A stretch of DNA of 64,000 nucleotides. Source: Mucilaginibacter inviolabilis. Lineage in GTDB: Bacteria; Bacteroidota; Bacteroidia; Sphingobacteriales; Sphingobacteriaceae. Positions 4,601 to 56,539 of this stretch are shown here, in pieces. Location of the stretch: positions 1,054,001 to 1,118,000 of the forward strand of contig NZ_JAANAT010000001.1 in assembly GCF_011089895.1 (NCBI RefSeq). Direction: 5' to 3'. The translations under genes and the position numbers were made by a program. The notes below the pieces were generated by a model. The model did not search any database, was not told the origin of the DNA, and saw nothing but the letters and a program-made list of their open reading frames with translations. The first letter of the stretch is position 1, and each line of letters opens with the position of its first letter.

Positions 4601-5492
4601 TCAGATGCTGCTGGGCAAAGCCAAATAACTTTATGAAAACCAGGTAAAGTGCATAATGAGGTGCATGAGTTGGATAATTATCCAATGCTTCGGATAGATA
4701 AGTTGGAGTTCGGCTTACTATATTTACGATGCCCGAAATAAATGATTGTAAGGCACCGGTAAATAAATTATGTGTAAGGATATGGTCGATATCTTTGTGT
4801 AGGGTGCCTGTTAGTGTGATCGGAAAGGCGGTAACAGGAGGATTAACTGTAAAAATACTATCCAGCTGTTTCTGGGAAGAAATGACGAATATTCCCCCTA
4901 CCGGATCAAAAGTGAAATTTTGTGAGAAGACAATATCATCGAGAGGGATTGAAGCATCTGTGTATGTTGAAGCAGGATCAATAAGCGAGCCAGCCACAAA
5001 CGTCTCATAATATTGATACAAAATGCTTAATGGCGCCGCTATTTTTGAAACAATGGAAACGGATAAAAAGGTTTTGTAACTCAGATCATCAGCTAAATGT
5101 TTATAAGCATCATCTAGCGCGCCGGTAATGGAGAAAATAAAATCAAAAAGGATTTTAAAGTTATTTTTGGCATCGGTATCATTAGGGGCATTAACTATGG
5201 TGTCATTTAGGTATTTGATAAATGATGCATAATCATTTATTCTCCATTCGGCAATTGCTGCAATTACTACGGCAATATCTTTGCCCATGAGCTGTTGCCA
5301 ATCTCCGTTGATGGTATTGGTATTATCATAATAATTTAACCAGGCACTATACTTTTTTGTGAGCAGGATCAAATCTGCATCAGTACGCTCATCTACAAGT
5401 GCACATTTAGCCAAAAGGGCATCCAACGCACGCTGAGCCTGGCTGGTGCCGTTATAGGATAAGAGTTTGGTATCGAAACAATTATTTGCCAT
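1626..5492 (-). CDS. Baseplate J-like protein of eCIS (Afp11-type)
   Basis: A 1288-aa protein. The C-terminal third carries the recognisable baseplate-J part: GGRVQETDDQFYQRVSERLR (about residue 1045), then TTWDYERLILQYFPQV and a wedge-like fold. The N-terminal two thirds are long, poorly recognisable and beta-rich, as in other Bacteroidota eCIS J proteins. In the family, this protein forms the baseplate wedge that links sheath and tube to the spike. The start ATG is within one base of the gp25-like stop at 5492, and its end overlaps the next baseplate gene. It is much longer than phage gp47/J (about 300-450 aa) but normal for eCIS. Function is inferred by homology and neighbourhood. Confidence 0.85.
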   Translation of the reverse strand: MANNCFDTKLLSYNGTSQAQRALDALLAKCALVDERTDADLILLTKKYSAWLNYYDNTNTINGDWQQLMGKDIAVVIAAIAEWRINDYASFIKYLNDTIVNAPNDTDAKNNFKILFDFIFSITGALDDAYKHLADDLSYKTFLSVSIVSKIAAPLSILYQYYETFVAGSLIDPASTYTDASIPLDDIVFSQNFTFDPVGGIFVISSQKQLDSIFTVNPPVTAFPITLTGTLHKDIDHILTHNLFTGALQSFISGIVNIVSRTPTYLSEALDNYPTHAPHYALYLVFIKLFGFAQQHLNQYTKKHLDFYYKQVLQLSNNVAEADFVHLVFELQKNIDQHLLPKGTSFKAGKDANNKDLFYSLTDDLVIQTASIQELKSIYLNKDNTPVALYSSPIANSEDGQGGKLLSADNSWFPFGNPKNIQQASIGFAIASNVLYLNEGNRTITLTFTCDSLAGITYTDLSGIFSIQLTGKKSWYTASAYTASVINNTTFSLTIVLEGDAPAIVPYSLKIHGGNFAVTLPMVQVLLNSYASYQKIKLPRINAVTVSVTVDAIKNLILQNDDGKINPAKPFKPFGDFPENGASFIIGSKEIFQKQLTKLTVDFDWQEAPLSKTTVNISSLAKGGWTAIANATSLYASSIVITDLQQRVRNPQIFNDLNLRNTLTTDITSIVNKGLGFEANNTQFMNISAFAQNDQPFNVKNIINNGLSFNPNKVIKNEIPNIIIANPTHIYVAAGPKEVDITGLERVVQSPEDFTPNEDYSITSIDGYIKLEMIGNDYSMATFLSNIPQPSVKVVYDTTDPNKIVGYTVDTAAAPVPNHPVLKSINVKYTAEDSVVFSNTDFTDRSNFFYHLEPFGYREMHPTITTDALTLLPVFNVEDGIPTDDGGELWIGLINAKADETFSILFQVSDGSANPLKNMTQVDWYYLSNNNWLSFNKQSVTDQTNNLTSSGLVIFNVPADATLVNSRADSGLIWIKAVVQHDTDAICNLIAVDVNAAKAQFVQDIANNIVFTQVLPPNIISKPAIADAALKKTQQPYTSFGGRVQETDDQFYQRVSERLRHKNRTITTWDYERLILQYFPQVFKVKCIDHTGFLPDENTNQQKYSEMLAGHVTIITIPDLTHLNNANPLRPYTSIGLLTEIEKYIATLTSPFVKLHLSNPLFEEVQFQFSVTFRENIDPVYFSNQLNDEIEQFLTPWAFGNPQAIQFGNSIEKSVVLNFIEERPYVDFVTCFKMNHIILRQGQLILQAEYDIDEAIASTARSILVSYYNEETKVKHLINSPANCDCNG

Positions 5493-48715: not shown

Positions 48716-50398
48716 TTATTCCATGTACTTCAACATCATCCGCTCACTTACAATATTAGCATCTTCTATCACAGAATCCGGATATCCCATGGATTCTAAT
48801 ATGGCTATACCGTTACGGCTTTTGAGTAGGCCCTCTTTAAGCTTATAGTCAAACACCAGGACAGCCCCCGATTTTGAATCTTCGAAAGAATAAATAGCAA
48901 AATCTTCATCGAGTAATTCGGCCAGTTCCAGGTCATGAGTTGATACAAAAACAAAATTTTGATTAGCGGTGATATAGGATAATACCGATTTTGCGGCGGC
49001 GATACGTTCAATTGTATTGGTACCCCGGAAAATTTCGTCAATAATAACCAGGCTTTTTACCTGTTCAACCTCGTTGCTGCGGCTCATAATAGTGAGTATG
49101 GATTGTGCCTGAGCCTGGAAATAGCTTTTTTGCTCTTCTATACTATCACTGGTTTTGATGCTGGTCTGTATCTTTAAAAAAGGTGCTTTATATTCCTTTG
49201 TGCAGCTCGTGAATAAAGTTTGAGCCAACAGGGTGTTAACAGCTATAGCCTTAATAAAGGTTGTTTTACCCGACATGTTTGAACCCGTTATCAAAGCGCC
49301 TTTATCAGCACGGGTATACAGCGAATTGGTAACACATTTATCAATCAACGGATGATAAAGATCGGTGATGTTCATTTGTGCATCTGTGTCGATAAACTGG
49401 GGCTTATTGTAATAAGGCAACCCATCTCTTACCGATTGGATAGCTACCAGCATATCAATTTCTGCAACGTATTGATAAATCTGCTCGATATCTTCCCGAT
49501 ACTTTTCAATATGCTTTATGGAGCTGGCGTAGATGCGGGGTTCTAATAAAAATAATGTTTTAACGAGTTGAAAAACGGCGTAGCTCAAATCACCGGCCCC
49601 ATTAATCAGCTTGCTTTCTAAGTTAATAATACTTAAAGATCGTTTTAGCCCCAGCAAATTTTTTAAACTGTTCTTCACAGATTCATTATCCTCCAATCCG
49701 GAGTTTTTTACCAGCCATACCGCTACATTATGCATGATAAGCAATTGGGGCAGTGAGTTGGTATAGGCGCTTATTTTTTTCTTGTTGGCATAATGTAAAA
49801 CCACATTATAACCCACAAAGAACAATAGTAACAGGATACTGATGGGGTTAGGGTAAACAATTAGTGACGCGATCAGGGCAATGATCACCAATGGTACAAA
49901 CCTGATATAGAAATTCATGATAGGCACAAACAGTGATTCATGAGTTTTTAAAAACAGATCGGCAATATAATAGGCGTACGTGTTGTTGAGTTTTGATAGT
50001 TGCAGTTCAATCAGCTCGCGGTTGGGTTTATCTTGATTGATAGCCTCAACCTTAGCATCAAGCTCCAGTAGTTTTTCAAGGTTTGTTTCGGGGAAATGCA
50101 GCTTTTTATATAGATATTGTTTCCCGGGCTTGGAACTTGTTCTGTCGATATAGTTAAAAATACTTTTAAGATCGATATCTTCTGCGGTAACATCTGATAA
50201 CCTATCCCAGCTTTTATCGGCATTTAAATAGGTTTTAATCAAGTCGAAATTGCGCCTGGTATTTACGGGCTTACCCCATTTACTTTTTATTTTATCAAGC
50301 TTTTTTTCTTCGGCCCGTAGTTTACCGTAATAAGAGCTTATCAATGAAAAACCCAGAACGATGGCCAAAAATAGCAGTGTAAATAAAAAGTAATACAT
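48716..50398 (-). CDS. Membrane-anchored MutS-like ATPase
   Basis: 560 aa. An N-terminal helix (about 1-18) and two further hydrophobic helices (about 168-205, FVPLVIIALIASLIVYP and ISILLLLFFVGYNVVLHY) precede a MutS core. The C-terminal ATPase has Walker A GSNMSGKTT (about 372-380), Walker B SLVIIDEIFRGTNTIER (about 449-465) and a FVFVSTHDLELA switch. No mismatch-recognition domain I (Phe-x-Glu) is seen, so it is not a canonical MutS. Membrane-anchored MutS-like proteins of this kind are common in Bacteroidota with unknown substrate. Confidence 0.88.
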   Translation of the reverse strand: MYYFLFTLLFLAIVLGFSLISSYYGKLRAEEKKLDKIKSKWGKPVNTRRNFDLIKTYLNADKSWDRLSDVTAEDIDLKSIFNYIDRTSSKPGKQYLYKKLHFPETNLEKLLELDAKVEAINQDKPNRELIELQLSKLNNTYAYYIADLFLKTHESLFVPIMNFYIRFVPLVIIALIASLIVYPNPISILLLLFFVGYNVVLHYANKKKISAYTNSLPQLLIMHNVAVWLVKNSGLEDNESVKNSLKNLLGLKRSLSIINLESKLINGAGDLSYAVFQLVKTLFLLEPRIYASSIKHIEKYREDIEQIYQYVAEIDMLVAIQSVRDGLPYYNKPQFIDTDAQMNITDLYHPLIDKCVTNSLYTRADKGALITGSNMSGKTTFIKAIAVNTLLAQTLFTSCTKEYKAPFLKIQTSIKTSDSIEEQKSYFQAQAQSILTIMSRSNEVEQVKSLVIIDEIFRGTNTIERIAAAKSVLSYITANQNFVFVSTHDLELAELLDEDFAIYSFEDSKSGAVLVFDYKLKEGLLKSRNGIAILESMGYPDSVIEDANIVSERMMLKYME

Positions 50399-50498: not shown

Positions 50499-50777
50499 AT
50501 GAAACTCATCAAATTTTCAGTCATAGTTTTTGCATTACTATTTTCAGTTCAATTTGTAAAAGCTCAAAGTATATCCGTAGGCGCTTCATTTGGTTATGGT
50601 TACCCGCATTCACGAGTGGTAGTTGCGTCTAATTATCCGGCATATGGTTATTATGACCGCCCTGTATATTACGGTTATGCCCGCAGGGTTTATTATAATC
50701 GCCCATATTATTATCCAGGCCGTTATTATGCCCGCCCTGTTTATTACAGAGTACACCGTCATTACGGGTGCTGGTAA
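50499..50777 (+). CDS. Tyr/Arg-rich secreted small protein
   Basis: 92 aa. The signal peptide MKLIKFSVIVFALLFSVQFVKAQ is followed by a Tyr-Pro-Arg-rich mature chain with many repeats of YYxRPxYY and YYNRPYYYP and a final HYGCW. Its tyrosine content is extreme, suggestive of an adhesive, matrix or surface-coat polypeptide. No family is recognised beyond small secreted Bacteroidota proteins. A terminator directly follows. Confidence 0.75.
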   Translation: MKLIKFSVIVFALLFSVQFVKAQSISVGASFGYGYPHSRVVVASNYPAYGYYDRPVYYGYARRVYYNRPYYYPGRYYARPVYYRVHRHYGCW

Positions 50778-51752: not shown

Positions 51753-53417
51753 TCAAACAACTAAGGGTAATTCAAAGTAAAAGGTAGCCCCTTTACCTAA
51801 CTCACTCTCTACCCCTATTTTACCCTGATGATTATTAATGATTTCGGCACTGATATACAGGCCCATGCCCAGACCGCTTGTCATAAACTTTTTATCTTCA
51901 ACCCTATAAAAACGTTCAAATATCCGCTCTATCTGTTCTTCAGATAAACCGATGCCATAATCGCTTACCGATACGCGTACCACATTAGCATTTATGGTGG
52001 TTTTCAGAATGATTTTCTTGTCGGCAAGCGAATATTTTACGGAATTATTTATAAAATTCATCAAAACCTGCTCCAACCGTTCGGCATTACCCGTAATTAG
52101 GATATCAGGTTGCAGCTGACTGTCAAACTCATATAGTGGATAAATGTGTTTTGAGTTTTCGGTTACCTGTGCCATAAGGTCAGACAAGTTAACTTCGCCC
52201 ATGGCATATTCAAGTCTCCCAGCCTGTATTTTACTCACATCAAGCAAATCATTGATAAGGCGCTGCAACTTATTGATAGCTACGCTTGCTTTTTCGATAT
52301 ACTGCTTTACTACAGGCGGTACTTCTTCCCTCTTATAGGAAGTGATGAGCTGCAGATACCCTTTTAAACTGGTTAATGGCGTGCGGAGCTCATGGCTGGC
52401 AATGCCGATAAATTCATCCTTACGATCCATTTCCCTTTTTTGATCTTCAATATCCGTAGCTGTACCTACCCAGAAAATAATTTCGCCCTTATCATCCCTC
52501 AAAGGAACGGCCCGGTTCAGGTGCCAGCGGTAGGTGTTATCCCATCTTTTGTACCGGTTTTCAACCTCAAATATATTGCCCGTTTTTAAAGCCTCAATAT
52601 ACTTATCTAAGGTATTGGGCAGGTCATCCGGGTGTACTACATGCTGCCATCCCCAGCCTACAGTATCGCCATAGCCACGGCCAGTATAGTTATACCATTG
52701 CTGATTATAAAAGTCAACCTCACCGGCTGGCAAGTTTGTCCAGGTCATTTGCGGTATATTGTTGGCCAGTAGTTTAAAATGTTCGCGGCTTATCAGCAGA
52801 TCATTGGTTCGGGCTCTAACCGTATCTTCCAGTTCATTATTGAGCTTTTCTGCCGCGTTTTGGGCAGCCAGTAGCTGTTCGTTTTTTACTTTTAGTTCCC
52901 ATTCAGTCTCTTTTTGACTGGTAAGATCGGTTAAGATCAAACTTAAGGCAGTGCCCTCATCCAGGTCAAGTGTAGTGCAGGAAAGCAGACAGGGCGTAAG
53001 TTTTCTGTATTTATCGGCCAGTAATATTTCGCCTTTGCAATCTTCCTTCCACCCTTTAAATATGAGCTCATTAAATTTCTCTCCTGATATTTCAGGAATA
53101 AAAAAGGCAAAGTTTAGTCCAATTACCTTTTCTAACGGCAAATTCATCATGGTGGCAAACCGCGAATTACTGTACAGAATAGTTCCTTCTCGATTCAAGG
53201 TAACCGCGCCTTCATTCATCTTTTCAATAAAAACGCGATAAGTTTGGTCGGCTGTTTTTAAAGTATATAATTGGTGCCCTTCAGCGTCTTTTACAATAAG
53301 CGCATCAACCTGGCCGGTACGAATGGCGTCAATGGTATCATTGGCTTCCTCCAGCTGTATCCGAAGTTCTTCGTTTTGCTGCAGTAATTCTTCATATGTA
53401 TATTTAGCCAGTTCCAT
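51753..53417 (-). CDS. PAS-domain sensor histidine kinase of the kai operon
   Basis: 554 aa, no membrane helix. An N-terminal coiled coil (residues 5-35, EELLQQNEELRIQLEEANDTI) precedes two PAS domains (about 55-170 and about 215-330, the second with the PAC-type YRWHLNRAVPLRDDKGEIIFWVGTATDI). HisKA has His342 in ASHELRTPLTSL, and HATPase_c carries N (FINNSVKYS), G1 (DYGIGLS) and G2 (GLGMGLYI) boxes. It shares a one-base overlap with kaiB2, so it is the fourth gene of the kai operon. A cytosolic kinase downstream of KaiC is plausible as an output, like SasA in cyanobacteria but without a KaiB-like sensor domain. Confidence 0.93.
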   Translation of the reverse strand: MELAKYTYEELLQQNEELRIQLEEANDTIDAIRTGQVDALIVKDAEGHQLYTLKTADQTYRVFIEKMNEGAVTLNREGTILYSNSRFATMMNLPLEKVIGLNFAFFIPEISGEKFNELIFKGWKEDCKGEILLADKYRKLTPCLLSCTTLDLDEGTALSLILTDLTSQKETEWELKVKNEQLLAAQNAAEKLNNELEDTVRARTNDLLISREHFKLLANNIPQMTWTNLPAGEVDFYNQQWYNYTGRGYGDTVGWGWQHVVHPDDLPNTLDKYIEALKTGNIFEVENRYKRWDNTYRWHLNRAVPLRDDKGEIIFWVGTATDIEDQKREMDRKDEFIGIASHELRTPLTSLKGYLQLITSYKREEVPPVVKQYIEKASVAINKLQRLINDLLDVSKIQAGRLEYAMGEVNLSDLMAQVTENSKHIYPLYEFDSQLQPDILITGNAERLEQVLMNFINNSVKYSLADKKIILKTTINANVVRVSVSDYGIGLSEEQIERIFERFYRVEDKKFMTSGLGMGLYISAEIINNHQGKIGVESELGKGATFYFELPLVV

Positions 53418-53752
53418 TAATTTTCTGTTTGTAAACCAAGACCTTTTAATACTTTACCCGTATTGGACATATCACCAATGAGCCTGCGTTCCATACCTGG
53501 CGCTTTTTTGATAAGCATGGGTAAAGCGATGATCTGCTCATATTCAACAATTAGCGGCTGTTGATAAACATCTACTATCTCCAGGTCATAATTACCTTTT
53601 AAATGGGTTTCGCAAATATCTTTGAGATTGGTTATAGCCCGCGATGAATTTGGAGATGCACCCGTTACAAACAGGCGTAAATGATACATCTGCTGTTCCT
53701 GTTCATTTAAATAGTTATCCTCAGATAAAGATGATTGATCCTTTTCGGCCAT
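53417..53752 (-). CDS. kaiB: KaiB-like protein 2 (divergent)
   Basis: 111 aa thioredoxin-like KaiB domain. LRLFVTGASPNSSRAITNL and YDLEIVDVYQQPLIVEYEQIIALPMLIK correspond to the KaiB beta-alpha-beta and PTL segments, but the usual ATPTL triad is changed to ALPML, and the conserved RRIIGDLS becomes RRLIGDMS. There is an extra acidic N-terminal tail. It is in the same operon as kaiC and kaiB1 and has a one-base overlap with the kinase. It is probably a regulatory variant rather than a duplicate. Confidence 0.88.
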   Translation of the reverse strand: MAEKDQSSLSEDNYLNEQEQQMYHLRLFVTGASPNSSRAITNLKDICETHLKGNYDLEIVDVYQQPLIVEYEQIIALPMLIKKAPGMERRLIGDMSNTGKVLKGLGLQTEN

Positions 53753-53755
53753 TTT

Positions 53756-54049
53756 TTATAGTTTACGGGGGCGTATATCTAATCCCACCAATACTTTTTC
53801 TTCATTTGACAGATCCCCGATTATTTTACGGATAGGCTCCGGAACTTTGCGTACCAATGTGGGGATAGCAAATATCTGGTCGCCTTCGGCCAATTGAGGT
53901 TTTACTAAAAGGTCAATCACTTCAATAGAATATTGGCCTTTTAAATGTTCTTCACAATATTTTTTAAGATTAGCTAAAGCACTTACAGATTTTGCTGTTT
54001 TGCCCGCAATATATAACCTTAATTCATAATTTATAACTTCCGCTTCCAT
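53756..54049 (-). CDS. kaiB: KaiB-like protein 1 (canonical)
   Basis: 97 aa Kai[75 protein letters not shown] follow cyanobacterial KaiB almost without gaps, including the PTL and IIGDLS segments needed for the fold switch. It overlaps the kaiC stop by one base (TAATG) and precedes kaiB2 by three bases. Confidence 0.95.
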
Positions 54050-55809
54050 TACTTTTTTTTCTTTATCGGACTTTCTTCTTTTACCCCTCTTCTCATTTTC
54101 GTGATCTCATCCCGGTTTTTGTCCATTATTTGTTGTTTCAATTCGTCTTCATAATAAATCCTGTTCAACTCTTCTTCTACCGATTCGAACTCAGCTTGTA
54201 AATTGGATATCTTGGCTTCCAGCATTATCCGTTTACGCATAATTTCCTTGTCTTTTCGGGATACGGCAAAATCGCGTAATGCTACACCGGTTTTTTCTTT
54301 AAGTTGTTGTGCCTGCCGTGCCGATCCTGTTAATACACCTTCCGGTCCCAGGTAAACATCAACAAGATCAAGGCCTTTATCGGTAATAATAAATTCACGC
54401 ACTTGGTTAGAGTGTTTCATACCGCGCGATTTCATGATATATAAACCACGGTTACGCTCGCCATTATGTTCAATATCGCGCACCAACATCCAGGTATCAA
54501 CCAGCGATGATACGCCTTCGTCCGTTTGTTCATTTACCACGGTGTTAAGCGATAAAGCTGTGAACATAACCGTAATTTGCTCGTTTTGTAAAAAATCTAT
54601 CAGCCGTACCAGCATCGATTTTACTTCACTTACAGATCCTACAGTGATCAGATTGGTTATCGGATCCAATATTACTGTATCTGGTTTAAATTGCTTTATC
54701 AGTTTGTAGATAGCTACCAGGTGCATCTCCAATCCATAAAGTGTTGGCCGTGAAGCATGAAATCGCAATAATCCGTTATTAACATAAGGCTGCAGATCGA
54801 TATTAATCGATCTCATATTGCGAATGATCTGGTTCGGAGATTCTTCGAAAGCAAAATAGAGGCATTTCTTTTTCTGTTTGCAGGTTTCGGCAGCGAAATA
54901 AGCTCCAATACTGGTTTTGCCGGTTCCGGCAGTTCCGGAAACCAGGATGCTGCTGCCTTTAAAAAAGCCCTGACCACCGAGCATATCATCCAATGCCGGG
55001 ATACCAGATGAAACTCTTTTTGAAGAAACGGCTTTTTCTAGTCCTAAGGATGTTACCGGTAACACAGAAATGCCATCCTCATCAATTAAAAATGGATATT
55101 CGTTAGTTCCGTGTTGAGACCCCCGGTATTTTACAACGCGAAGACGGCGGGTTGATATCTGGTTGATAACGCGGTGATCAAGCAGAATAACACAATCAGA
55201 AACATATTCTTCTAAGCCCTGACGGGTTAATGCCCCGCCATCTCCCTTTTCGCCGGTGATAATAGCAGTGACGCCTTTATTTTTTAAAAATGTAAAAAGC
55301 CGGCGCAATTCGGCACGCAGTATGGTTTGATTATTAAGGCCTGAAAAAAGATTTTCAAGGGTATCTAATACCACCCTTTTAGCTCCGATGCTGTCAATGG
55401 CGTGGCCTAGTCTGATAAACAATCCTTCCAGATCATATTCACCGGTCTCCTCTATTTCGCTACGGTCAATATGTACGTGATCAAGCTTAACTTTTTTCTC
55501 TTCCTGTAATTTATATAGATCAAAGCCGAGCGAGGCTACATTCATAGCTAACTCGTCTGTTTTTTCTTCAAAGGCCATAAAAACCCCCGGTTCATTAAAG
55601 AGTGTAACTCCGCGAACTATAAATTCAAGCGACATCAACGTTTTACCGCAGCCGGCTTCTCCGCAAATAAGTGTTGGCCTGCCGGTAGGTAAACCACCAT
55701 CTGTTATTTCATCAAGTCCGTTAATGCCCGTCGGTGTTTTGGGCAATGTTTTAAAATTGGTTTGCTGTTTTTTATGTGATTTAGTCATCGTAAACAAATG
55801 TTTTTTCAA
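54049..55809 (-). CDS. kaiC: KaiC-family double ATPase
   Basis: 586 aa, two RecA-like domains. CI: Walker A GEAGCGKT (50-57) and catalytic Glu pair FEEK (81-82). CII: Walker A GTAGTGKT (292-299), Glu pair FEES (322-323). The phosphorylation segment [12 protein letters not shown] (residues 429-440) aligns with TDSHIST of cyanobacterial KaiC, giving Ser434/Ser435 in place of Ser431/Thr432. The tail (from about 500) is a long basic/acidic coiled coil rather than the A-loop, consistent with the lack of kaiA. It may be an hourglass-type, not self-sustained, timer. The ATG eight codons downstream (MTKSHKK) is an alternative start. Confidence 0.95.
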
Positions 55810-55974: not shown

Positions 55975-56065
55975 AATATTGTTAGATATTTAAACAGGTT
56001 CATTTACCTCAATTAAAAAAACATTAACTCACTTGTTATGTTTATTAGTTATAAAAATAATAATC

Positions 56066-56539
56066 ATGGGAGTTTTACAACACGTACAACATCAGATATC
56101 GTCGCTTAACGATCTGATCAAAATAAATAACGACCGTATAGCGGGTTATGAAAAAGCCAATGAAAGTACTAATGAAGCAGGCCTGAATTTGCTTTTTAAA
56201 GAATATATAGACCAAAGTAAAAGCCATGTTTCGGATTTGAAAGAGTACATTCATGTTTTGGGGGGTGATCCTACTGATGGTACTACTTTATCTGGAAAAC
56301 TTAATAATACCTGGATAGATGTTAAAGCGGCTTTTGGAAGTAAAGACAGACATAGCATATTGGTTGATTGTGAGCGCGCCGAAGATGTTATCAAAAAAGC
56401 ATACAGAGCAGCATTAGATGACAAAGAACTGATCTGGGAAGATCAGCAGGTTGTATTTATCCTCAAAAAGCATTTGGAAAGCTTAATAGTTGCCCATGAT
56501 ACCATTAAAGCTTTGCGTGATTCGGAAGTCAGTGCATAG
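56066..56539 (+). CDS. PA2169-family four-helix-bundle protein (DUF2383)
   Basis: 157 aa from the ATG at 56066 (MGVLQHVQHQISSLND); the longer frame has a TTG start and adds 11 residues. Helices are LNDLIKINNDRIAGYEKA, LLFKEYIDQSKSHVSDLKEYI and a ferritin-like CERAEDVIKKAYRAALDD. Members are often stress-induced and can bind metal through Glu/His residues. It is divergent from kaiC and shares its 256-bp upstream region. Confidence 0.93.
   Translation: MGVLQHVQHQISSLNDLIKINNDRIAGYEKANESTNEAGLNLLFKEYIDQSKSHVSDLKEYIHVLGGDPTDGTTLSGKLNNTWIDVKAAFGSKDRHSILVDCERAEDVIKKAYRAALDDKELIWEDQQVVFILKKHLESLIVAHDTIKALRDSEVSA

Follow-up and report, generated by a model that had tools for sequence, protein, structure and literature searches.

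In this work we analyzed a 64,000-nucleotide stretch of the Mucilaginibacter inviolabilis genome (contig NZ_JAANAT010000001.1, positions 1,054,001 to 1,118,000; hereafter the window), and specifically four consecutive minus-strand genes that encode a KaiC ATPase, two KaiB proteins (alpha and beta) and a histidine kinase beginning with a 75-residue segment termed here the module (Table 1). The coordinates confirm an intact kaiC-kaiB-kaiB-histidine kinase operon and bear out the close packing described in the original prediction, which had been made from the DNA letters: the kaiC/alpha and beta/kinase junctions each overlap by one base (TAATG), and alpha and beta lie three bases apart. Since two junctions overlap and the third gap is so short, a single transcript is likely. 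Scans for promoters and terminators at the operon gave scores near the shuffled expectation. The host genome (7.15 Mb, completeness 99.97%) gave no KaiA match in a search that detected the Synechococcus elongatus KaiA control, in agreement with the predicted absence of kaiA, and the KaiA that a KaiABC oscillator includes was thus not found. Its only KaiB matches are alpha and beta, and it holds one double-domain KaiC, two further KaiC-family matches being frames of 489 and 346 amino acids on other contigs. Among 60 sampled related genomes KaiB was found in 24, the host counted among them, with at least two copies in each, and the kaiC-kaiB-kaiB-kinase order was seen in five families of the class, a recurrence beyond chance.

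Table 1. Genes and predicted features of the Mucilaginibacter kai operon (window positions)
Feature	Position	Strand	Description
kaiC	54049-55809	minus	586 amino acids from TTG; translation may instead start at the ATG of codon 8
KaiC C-terminal extension	54052-54294	minus	predicted coiled coil like that of R. sphaeroides KaiC (KaiC-RS); alignment with the KaiC-RS tail extends to residue 557
KaiC Ser434-Ser435	54505-54510	minus	aligned with the Ser413-Ser414 phosphorylation pair of KaiC-RS (8dba; Glu-Glu mutant 8fwi)
kaiB-alpha	53756-54049	minus	canonical KaiB; Pfam KaiB 95.4 bits
kaiB-beta	53417-53752	minus	second KaiB paralogue, predicted kinase adaptor; Pfam KaiB 81.5 bits
Beta signature Tyr-Gln-Gln-Pro	53555-53566	minus	Tyr after the second strand marks beta
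Histidine kinase	51753-53417	minus	Pfam: two PAS stretches, HisKA, HATPase_c
N-terminal receiver module of the kinase (predicted)	53193-53417	minus	residues 1-75; long helix, beta hairpin, helix into PAS
First PAS domain	53055-53240	minus	residues 60-121 as matched by Pfam
Second PAS domain	52446-52751	minus	residues 223-324, Pfam
HisKA + HATPase_c kinase core	51762-52421	minus	residues 333-552, Pfam

KaiC is full-length, as had been predicted: Pfam recognizes two KaiC ATPase stretches (358 bits), with Walker A motifs beginning at residues 50 and 292 and catalytic glutamate pairs starting at residues 81 and 322, and the best solved relative is the KaiC of Rhodobacter sphaeroides (KaiC-RS; 8dba, 649 bits). 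The double ATPase domain, the Ser-Ser pair (taken as a mark of KaiC2 from PMC5520375 and PMC10076222) and a C-terminal extension of about 50 residues are all present, and judged by its sequence KaiC is of the KaiC2/KaiC-RS type. The Ser-Ser pair occurs in 119 and a tail of at least 55 residues in 115 of the 122 distinct KaiCs from the module-bearing loci fetched, and among 24 KaiCs from module-free loci in 16 and only 3, respectively. The KaiC2-class protein KaiC-RS has been described as phosphorylated independently of KaiA, assembled into a coiled-coil dodecamer and reset by the ATP/ADP ratio (PMC10076222), and Bacteroidetes as carrying only KaiB2/KaiC2-like proteins (PMC5520375). The proposal of a non-cyanobacterial KaiC system with the kinase gene as its likely output stands, its nearest solved relative belonging to a KaiA-free hourglass (PMC10076222); the suggested measuring of stress duration or day-night changes in a soil bacterium is conjectural.

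The two KaiBs had been described as one canonical and one divergent copy. Alpha is indeed canonical; beta, which exceeds the Pfam KaiB cut-off (81.5 vs 27 bits), is no stray copy and, by its place in the KaiB tree, is one of two old paralogues. With alpha and beta labels assigned from gene position alone, one change on the tree separates 55 alpha from 86 beta rows, in a quick tree of the 178 rows left of 297 after near-copy removal (rows under 70 bits or 85 amino acids excluded, here and from the counts; 105 columns, short search, 100 of 175 inner branches below 80). The smallest well-supported side containing all alpha and no beta rows has 63 members, the R. sphaeroides KaiB inside, with a support of 99 (Shimodaira-Hasegawa-like approximate likelihood ratio test, SH-aLRT), and a tree rebuilt after adding a KaiB-kinase fusion and dropping five rows, including a beta, from four loci concurs, with a support of 96. 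A recent duplication was rejected on this single change, which spans phyla and archaea. The beta profile outscores the alpha profile in all 118 beta rows and in none of the 119 alpha rows, and these rows had also trained the profiles.

Sequence features were counted over distinct sequences, as five identical KaiB pairs had entered twice through two tools or related genomes. The isomerisation of three prolines limits KaiB fold switching (PMC11551320). All three are present in the alpha of the window and in 115 of 115 alpha sequences; the first two are kept in 117 of 117 beta sequences and the third in 103. The window beta has Met at the third position and so departs from the R. sphaeroides-type fold-switching KaiB. 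The idea that the beta class as such had stopped switching through proline loss was dropped, as only 14 of the 117 had lost the third proline. The signature Tyr was found in 93 of 117 beta and 1 of 115 alpha sequences, in 10 of 13 distinct single KaiBs adjoining a module and in 2 of 45 other KaiBs. Those single KaiBs are nearer alpha in 14 of 15 rows, 11 of which score between the classes. In one genus (L089, 6130-6370; L094, 6258-6498) about 240 nucleotides without a KaiB-like frame occupy the beta position while kaiC, alpha and the module-kinase are kept; to judge from this layout, beta is lost there and the module retained. One relative (G031) carries two extra KaiB genes (L069, 6648-6929; L070, 2516-2806), with no kaiC in the stretches fetched.

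The PAS-PAS-histidine kinase make-up originally proposed is matched by Pfam, and His342 is assigned by motif as the phospho-acceptor. As the highest 19-residue hydropathy is 1.13, no membrane span is indicated, in line with the cytosolic location that had been suggested. The first 75 or so residues are without a Pfam name. An AlphaFold2 model places a helix at residues 8-34, a hairpin at 39-44/47-52 and a helix at 56-66 running into the PAS domain, with a mean predicted local distance difference test (pLDDT) of 90 across 195 residues and values of 59-82 around the hairpin; Foldseek returned PAS/LOV proteins and was uninformative on the helix and hairpin alone. Pfam was applied to 29 module proteins (the window kinase, 8 of 10 proteins of a first set and all 20 of later sets), which comprise 21 kinases, two HD-GYP proteins, one GGDEF-EAL protein, two sigma54 activators, both with a Fis-type DNA-binding domain, and three proteins without an enzyme domain, one of which (L116) has an in-frame stop. 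The kinases span four phospho-acceptor types, some being hybrid and one (L204) called by its HWE domain alone. Because this front is constant while the output domains behind it vary, the module looks like a receiver. A cognate response regulator adjoining the kinase was also looked for, with no receiver match within the 64 kb of the window and 90 genome-wide.

The genomic distribution of the module was also surveyed. When 84,980 species genomes were scanned with a query made of the module and free of kai sequences, at least 265 loci were confirmed. Of the best 80, which were analyzed, 76 have a KaiB within 400 nucleotides upstream on the same strand and 74 have two KaiBs; by their record titles, these 80 belong to Bacteroidota, Chlorobi, Proteobacteria, Nitrospirae, Acidobacteria, Chloroflexi, Verrucomicrobia, Spirochaetes, Planctomycetes, archaea and others, many being metagenome assemblies. 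The exceptions are two module frames starting 193 and 223 bases from a contig end (L164, L192), one locus with kai genes 2-5 kb away (L209) and one in the same genome (L203) with no KaiB within 7 kb on either side. Within Bacteroidota, the module opens the gene after the last kaiB in all 40 fetched kaiC-kaiB-kaiB loci as well as in the window. Among 395 Bacteroidota genomes, 28, the host included, have a strong copy, one apiece and always within 263 nucleotides downstream of a KaiB match; KaiB was found in 39 (E <= 0.001; 37 above the cut-off), and the 356 KaiB-free genomes gave no strong copy and one weak match (G390). The 24 module-bearing genomes among the 60 related ones are the same 24 that have KaiB.

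Similar results were obtained in 299 Pseudomonadota genomes, where nine copies (E <= 8.8e-11) all follow KaiB and no strong copy occurs in the 264 KaiB-free genomes. Five weaker matches (G513, G677, G541, G581, G584) follow no intact KaiB; in the last of these (L288), a KaiB remnant at about 4718-4828 lies directly upstream of the faint module match, and the locus looks like a decayed kai operon. In an archaeal phylum, 17 copies were found in 13 of 294 genomes, a sample searched genome-wide for the module and not for KaiB itself; 13 follow KaiB, three are second copies beside such a cluster and one is fused to KaiB. A role of the module as a general leader of PAS kinases was ruled out for the strong copies in these samples of three phyla. 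Other arrangements were also seen. In 12 of 20 Pseudomonadota loci (L270-L289) two KaiBs flank other genes at a spacing of 0.8-2.4 kb, with no module, and two kinase-KaiB-hybrid kinase clusters (L111, 4917-9136; L117, 3091-7309), with no module and no kaiC in the fetched stretch, are by their gene content another KaiB-linked signalling layout.

The co-variation of the operon's parts was quantified by pairwise distances of KaiC, alpha, beta, the module and the following PAS domain in 74 complete operons (105 before near-copy removal), as partial correlations of each pair given the other three parts. Beta co-varies with the module (0.44; bootstrap 0.27 to 0.55) and alpha does not (0.06), the former value exceeding the latter in 98% of bootstraps. 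KaiC correlates with alpha (0.41), beta (0.28) and the module (0.18), and the PAS domain with KaiC (0.41) and the module (0.27) and not with beta (-0.11). A stricter set of 27 more distant operons gave 0.62 for module-beta and 0.02 for module-alpha; without the PAS domain the values were 0.43 for module-beta, 0.33 for module-KaiC and 0.07 for module-alpha. Linkage alone does not explain the module-beta correlation, because the PAS domain, located in the module's own gene, fails to track beta.

Furthermore, beta and the module were found in single proteins. In one archaeal genome, which also holds a complete operon, KaiB-module-PAS-PAS-HisKA-HATPase_c forms a single frame, in which the domains other than KaiB, the module and the kinase core were assigned by eye and from the Pfam labels of relatives. 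The first 185 residues of this fusion, used as a query against proteins, retrieved 34 matches, and eight of these combine a KaiB domain with a module match. In one of the eight (P0126) a single frame covers alpha, beta and a portion of the module; this looks like a frameshift in the assembly, and the protein was excluded. The other seven are clusters of KaiB-module-PAS-kinase fusions, one named Methanosphaerula subterraneus. They come in two architectures, only one of which includes a receiver domain, and their KaiBs are beta in seven of seven (by 16-20 bits). Beta covalently joined to a kinase is the layout of SasA, the cyanobacterial kinase that reads KaiC and in which a KaiB-like thioredoxin-fold part is likewise tied to a HisKA/HATPase_c kinase. 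The window kinase shares the histidine kinase core with SasA; a KaiB-like domain in the same protein is absent from it and present in its fusion relatives. In the Mucilaginibacter operon, unlike SasA, a gene of its own encodes the KaiB-like part and the kinase carries the module and PAS domains, and non-kinase outputs occur among module proteins. The solved SasA domain is matched by the beta profile at E 3.2e-5 vs 0.041 for the alpha profile, and all 36 beta sequences examined, vs 18 of 35 alpha sequences, are recognized by the SasA-type kinase model of NCBIfam. A structural model of beta, predicted from an input with 12 rows of close relatives, shows the order strand-helix-strand-helix-strand-strand-helix, that is, the fold-switched, thioredoxin-like topology that binds KaiC. 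Its best matches in the PDB are, in this order, the Legionella pneumophila KaiB (4kun), KaiC-bound or fold-stabilised KaiBs and the SasA sensor domain; no ground-state KaiB is among the 50 matches listed, which is no proof of absence.

As regards the surroundings of the operon, a DUF2383 four-helix-bundle gene lies on the upstream side of kaiC (56033-56539), where ten relatives (L059, L060, L068, L071, L072, L075, L077, L082, L083 and L084) have a divergent gene for a kinase-like protein of 866-1019 amino acids facing kaiC. Elsewhere in the window, a 560-residue protein (48716-50398) resembles, by eye, a MutS-family ATPase with membrane segments, and a 92-residue Tyr/Arg-rich protein (50499-50777) has, also by eye, a signal-peptide-like start.

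Altogether, we lean towards a reading in which the four genes make up a KaiC2 system without KaiA, its output kinase being read through a dedicated KaiB, and beta and the module forming a two-piece SasA. Each step of binding and signalling in the following scheme is what we infer from the genes and their order, the conservation of the module, the paralogue split, the co-variation and the fusions. KaiC would likely autophosphorylate on Ser434/Ser435 and be reset through its tail by the ATP/ADP ratio, as shown for KaiC-RS. Alpha would likely be the fold-switching feedback KaiB, the role of the R. sphaeroides KaiB. Beta, predicted in the thioredoxin-like fold, would dock on KaiC, perhaps in competition with alpha, and report its state; it would also dock on the N-terminal module of the kinase, beta acting as a detachable sensor and the module as its socket, and the helix and hairpin of the module would pass the signal on and set the activity of His342. 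The direction of this effect and the physiological signal behind it belong to the same conjecture. The built-in kinase output of the original prediction would hence be kept as far as the kinase is the likely output, and may be better put, on the strength of the co-variation, the profiles and the fusions, as a kinase plus its dedicated KaiB. A broader proposition, for which we see an even chance, is that KaiC2 timers outside cyanobacteria are read by a two-part receptor made of a second KaiB (beta), docking on KaiC, and the 75-residue module, on which beta docks, and of which SasA would be the fused version; that the module plugs the signal into histidine kinases, cyclic di-GMP (c-di-GMP) enzymes and sigma54 activators in bacteria and archaea; and that beta-module-kinase fusions arose again in archaea and elsewhere.

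Several observations weigh against the reading that we favour for the operon. The copies from which the module profiles were made were themselves adjacent to kai genes, and the neighbourhood counts rest on the best 80 of at least 265 loci. Among genomes with KaiB, 26 of the 35 in Pseudomonadota and 11 of the 39 in Bacteroidota (four of the 11 having weak or contig-edge KaiB matches) gave no strong module, and other kai systems must hence signal otherwise. Beta would not always be needed, as some loci pair the module with a single, mostly alpha-nearer KaiB, and, since 103 of the 117 beta sequences retain the third proline, fold switching may persist in the class. With a mean of 1.68, the PAS distances come close to saturation, even if the correlation of PAS with KaiC is still visible. 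Module scores are low in the archaeal fusions (28-61 bits) and high in the other type (91-93 bits), and the query that retrieved them was a beta fusion, so that alpha fusions may have been missed. The beta model has a mean pLDDT of 71.6 and was made for beta alone. The L. pneumophila KaiB, nearest to beta in fold, reportedly did not bind its KaiC in two-hybrid tests. Finally, even a KaiB with a preference for the ground state comes out fold-switched from AlphaFold2 in its default mode, and small alignments yield the ground state for the R. sphaeroides KaiB, an alpha (PMC10808063).

Other explanations may account for these results. Both KaiBs could be feedback regulators of KaiC with different kinetics, beta fixed and alpha switching, the kinase reading KaiC directly via the module, and beta and the module would then co-vary only through their shared contact with KaiC. 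The correlations of KaiC with beta and with the module fit such an arrangement, as do the loci combining the module with an alpha-like single KaiB; we nevertheless regard it as unlikely, given that the module-beta correlation reaches 0.44-0.62 with KaiC held constant and that the fusions join the module to beta in every case, the bias of their query being noted. More doubtful in our view is that the module is an ordinary PAS-dimerisation leader inherited with the operon, in which case the kinase would sense its own ligand via PAS and share with the kai genes only a transcript. The module does begin with a long predicted helix and run straight into PAS, and the Foldseek matches of its model are PAS/LOV proteins. 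Such a leader is difficult to reconcile with the lack of strong copies in the KaiB-free genomes of both bacterial samples, and with a module that remains constant while the output domains change.

Beta might also be a thioredoxin-like stress or redox protein outside KaiC timing, as proposed for the L. pneumophila KaiB. The latter is the best structural match of beta and scores higher with the beta than with the alpha profile (95.0 vs 79.4 bits), the reverse of the R. sphaeroides KaiB (121.8 vs 137). Notwithstanding, with two KaiBs upstream of the module in 74 of the best 80 loci, and beta co-varying with both KaiC and the module, we consider this very improbable.

Some parts of this organization have precedents. 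The gene order is not new, since kinase or GGDEF/EAL genes beside kaiBC are described in PMC3164672, and a kaiC-B-PAS/HK operon of purple bacteria in PMC4794148. In the R. sphaeroides KaiBC hourglass (PMC10076222), KaiC is likewise a KaiC2 with the Ser-Ser pair and C-terminal tail, KaiA is missing and the KaiB shares the clade of alpha; the second KaiB and the receiver module are the difference here, and the main text of that paper contains neither "histidine kinase" nor "operon". The kaiC-B-PAS/HK operon of Rhodopseudomonas palustris and R. sphaeroides (PMC4794148) also has a PAS histidine kinase within a kaiCB operon, although a single KaiB is named there. The first kaiC context of the Ramlibacter paper (PMC3164672) resembles ours in that a kinase or GGDEF/EAL gene immediately follows the non-cyanobacterial kaiC-kaiB; the section on this context describes neither a common N-terminal module nor two KaiB paralogues, and the KaiB-like N-terminal domain that the paper reports belongs to kaiC-histidine kinase pairs without kaiB. 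In the titles, abstract starts and passages covered in the open-licence literature, neither the module and its link with beta nor the alpha/beta split or the fusions were found described, and no report in the open-licence literature searched treats Mucilaginibacter together with KaiC.

The output of non-cyanobacterial Kai systems is an open question in print. SasA homologues outside cyanobacteria have been described as lacking the KaiB-like domain, so that a different output pathway must exist (PMC5520375); KaiB-kinase fusions do exist in archaea, and the beta-module pair offers a concrete and widely conserved candidate for that pathway. The module may serve as a marker sequence for finding Kai outputs in genomes, and the reading of beta and the module as a pair predicts that Kai systems would directly control c-di-GMP turnover and transcription.

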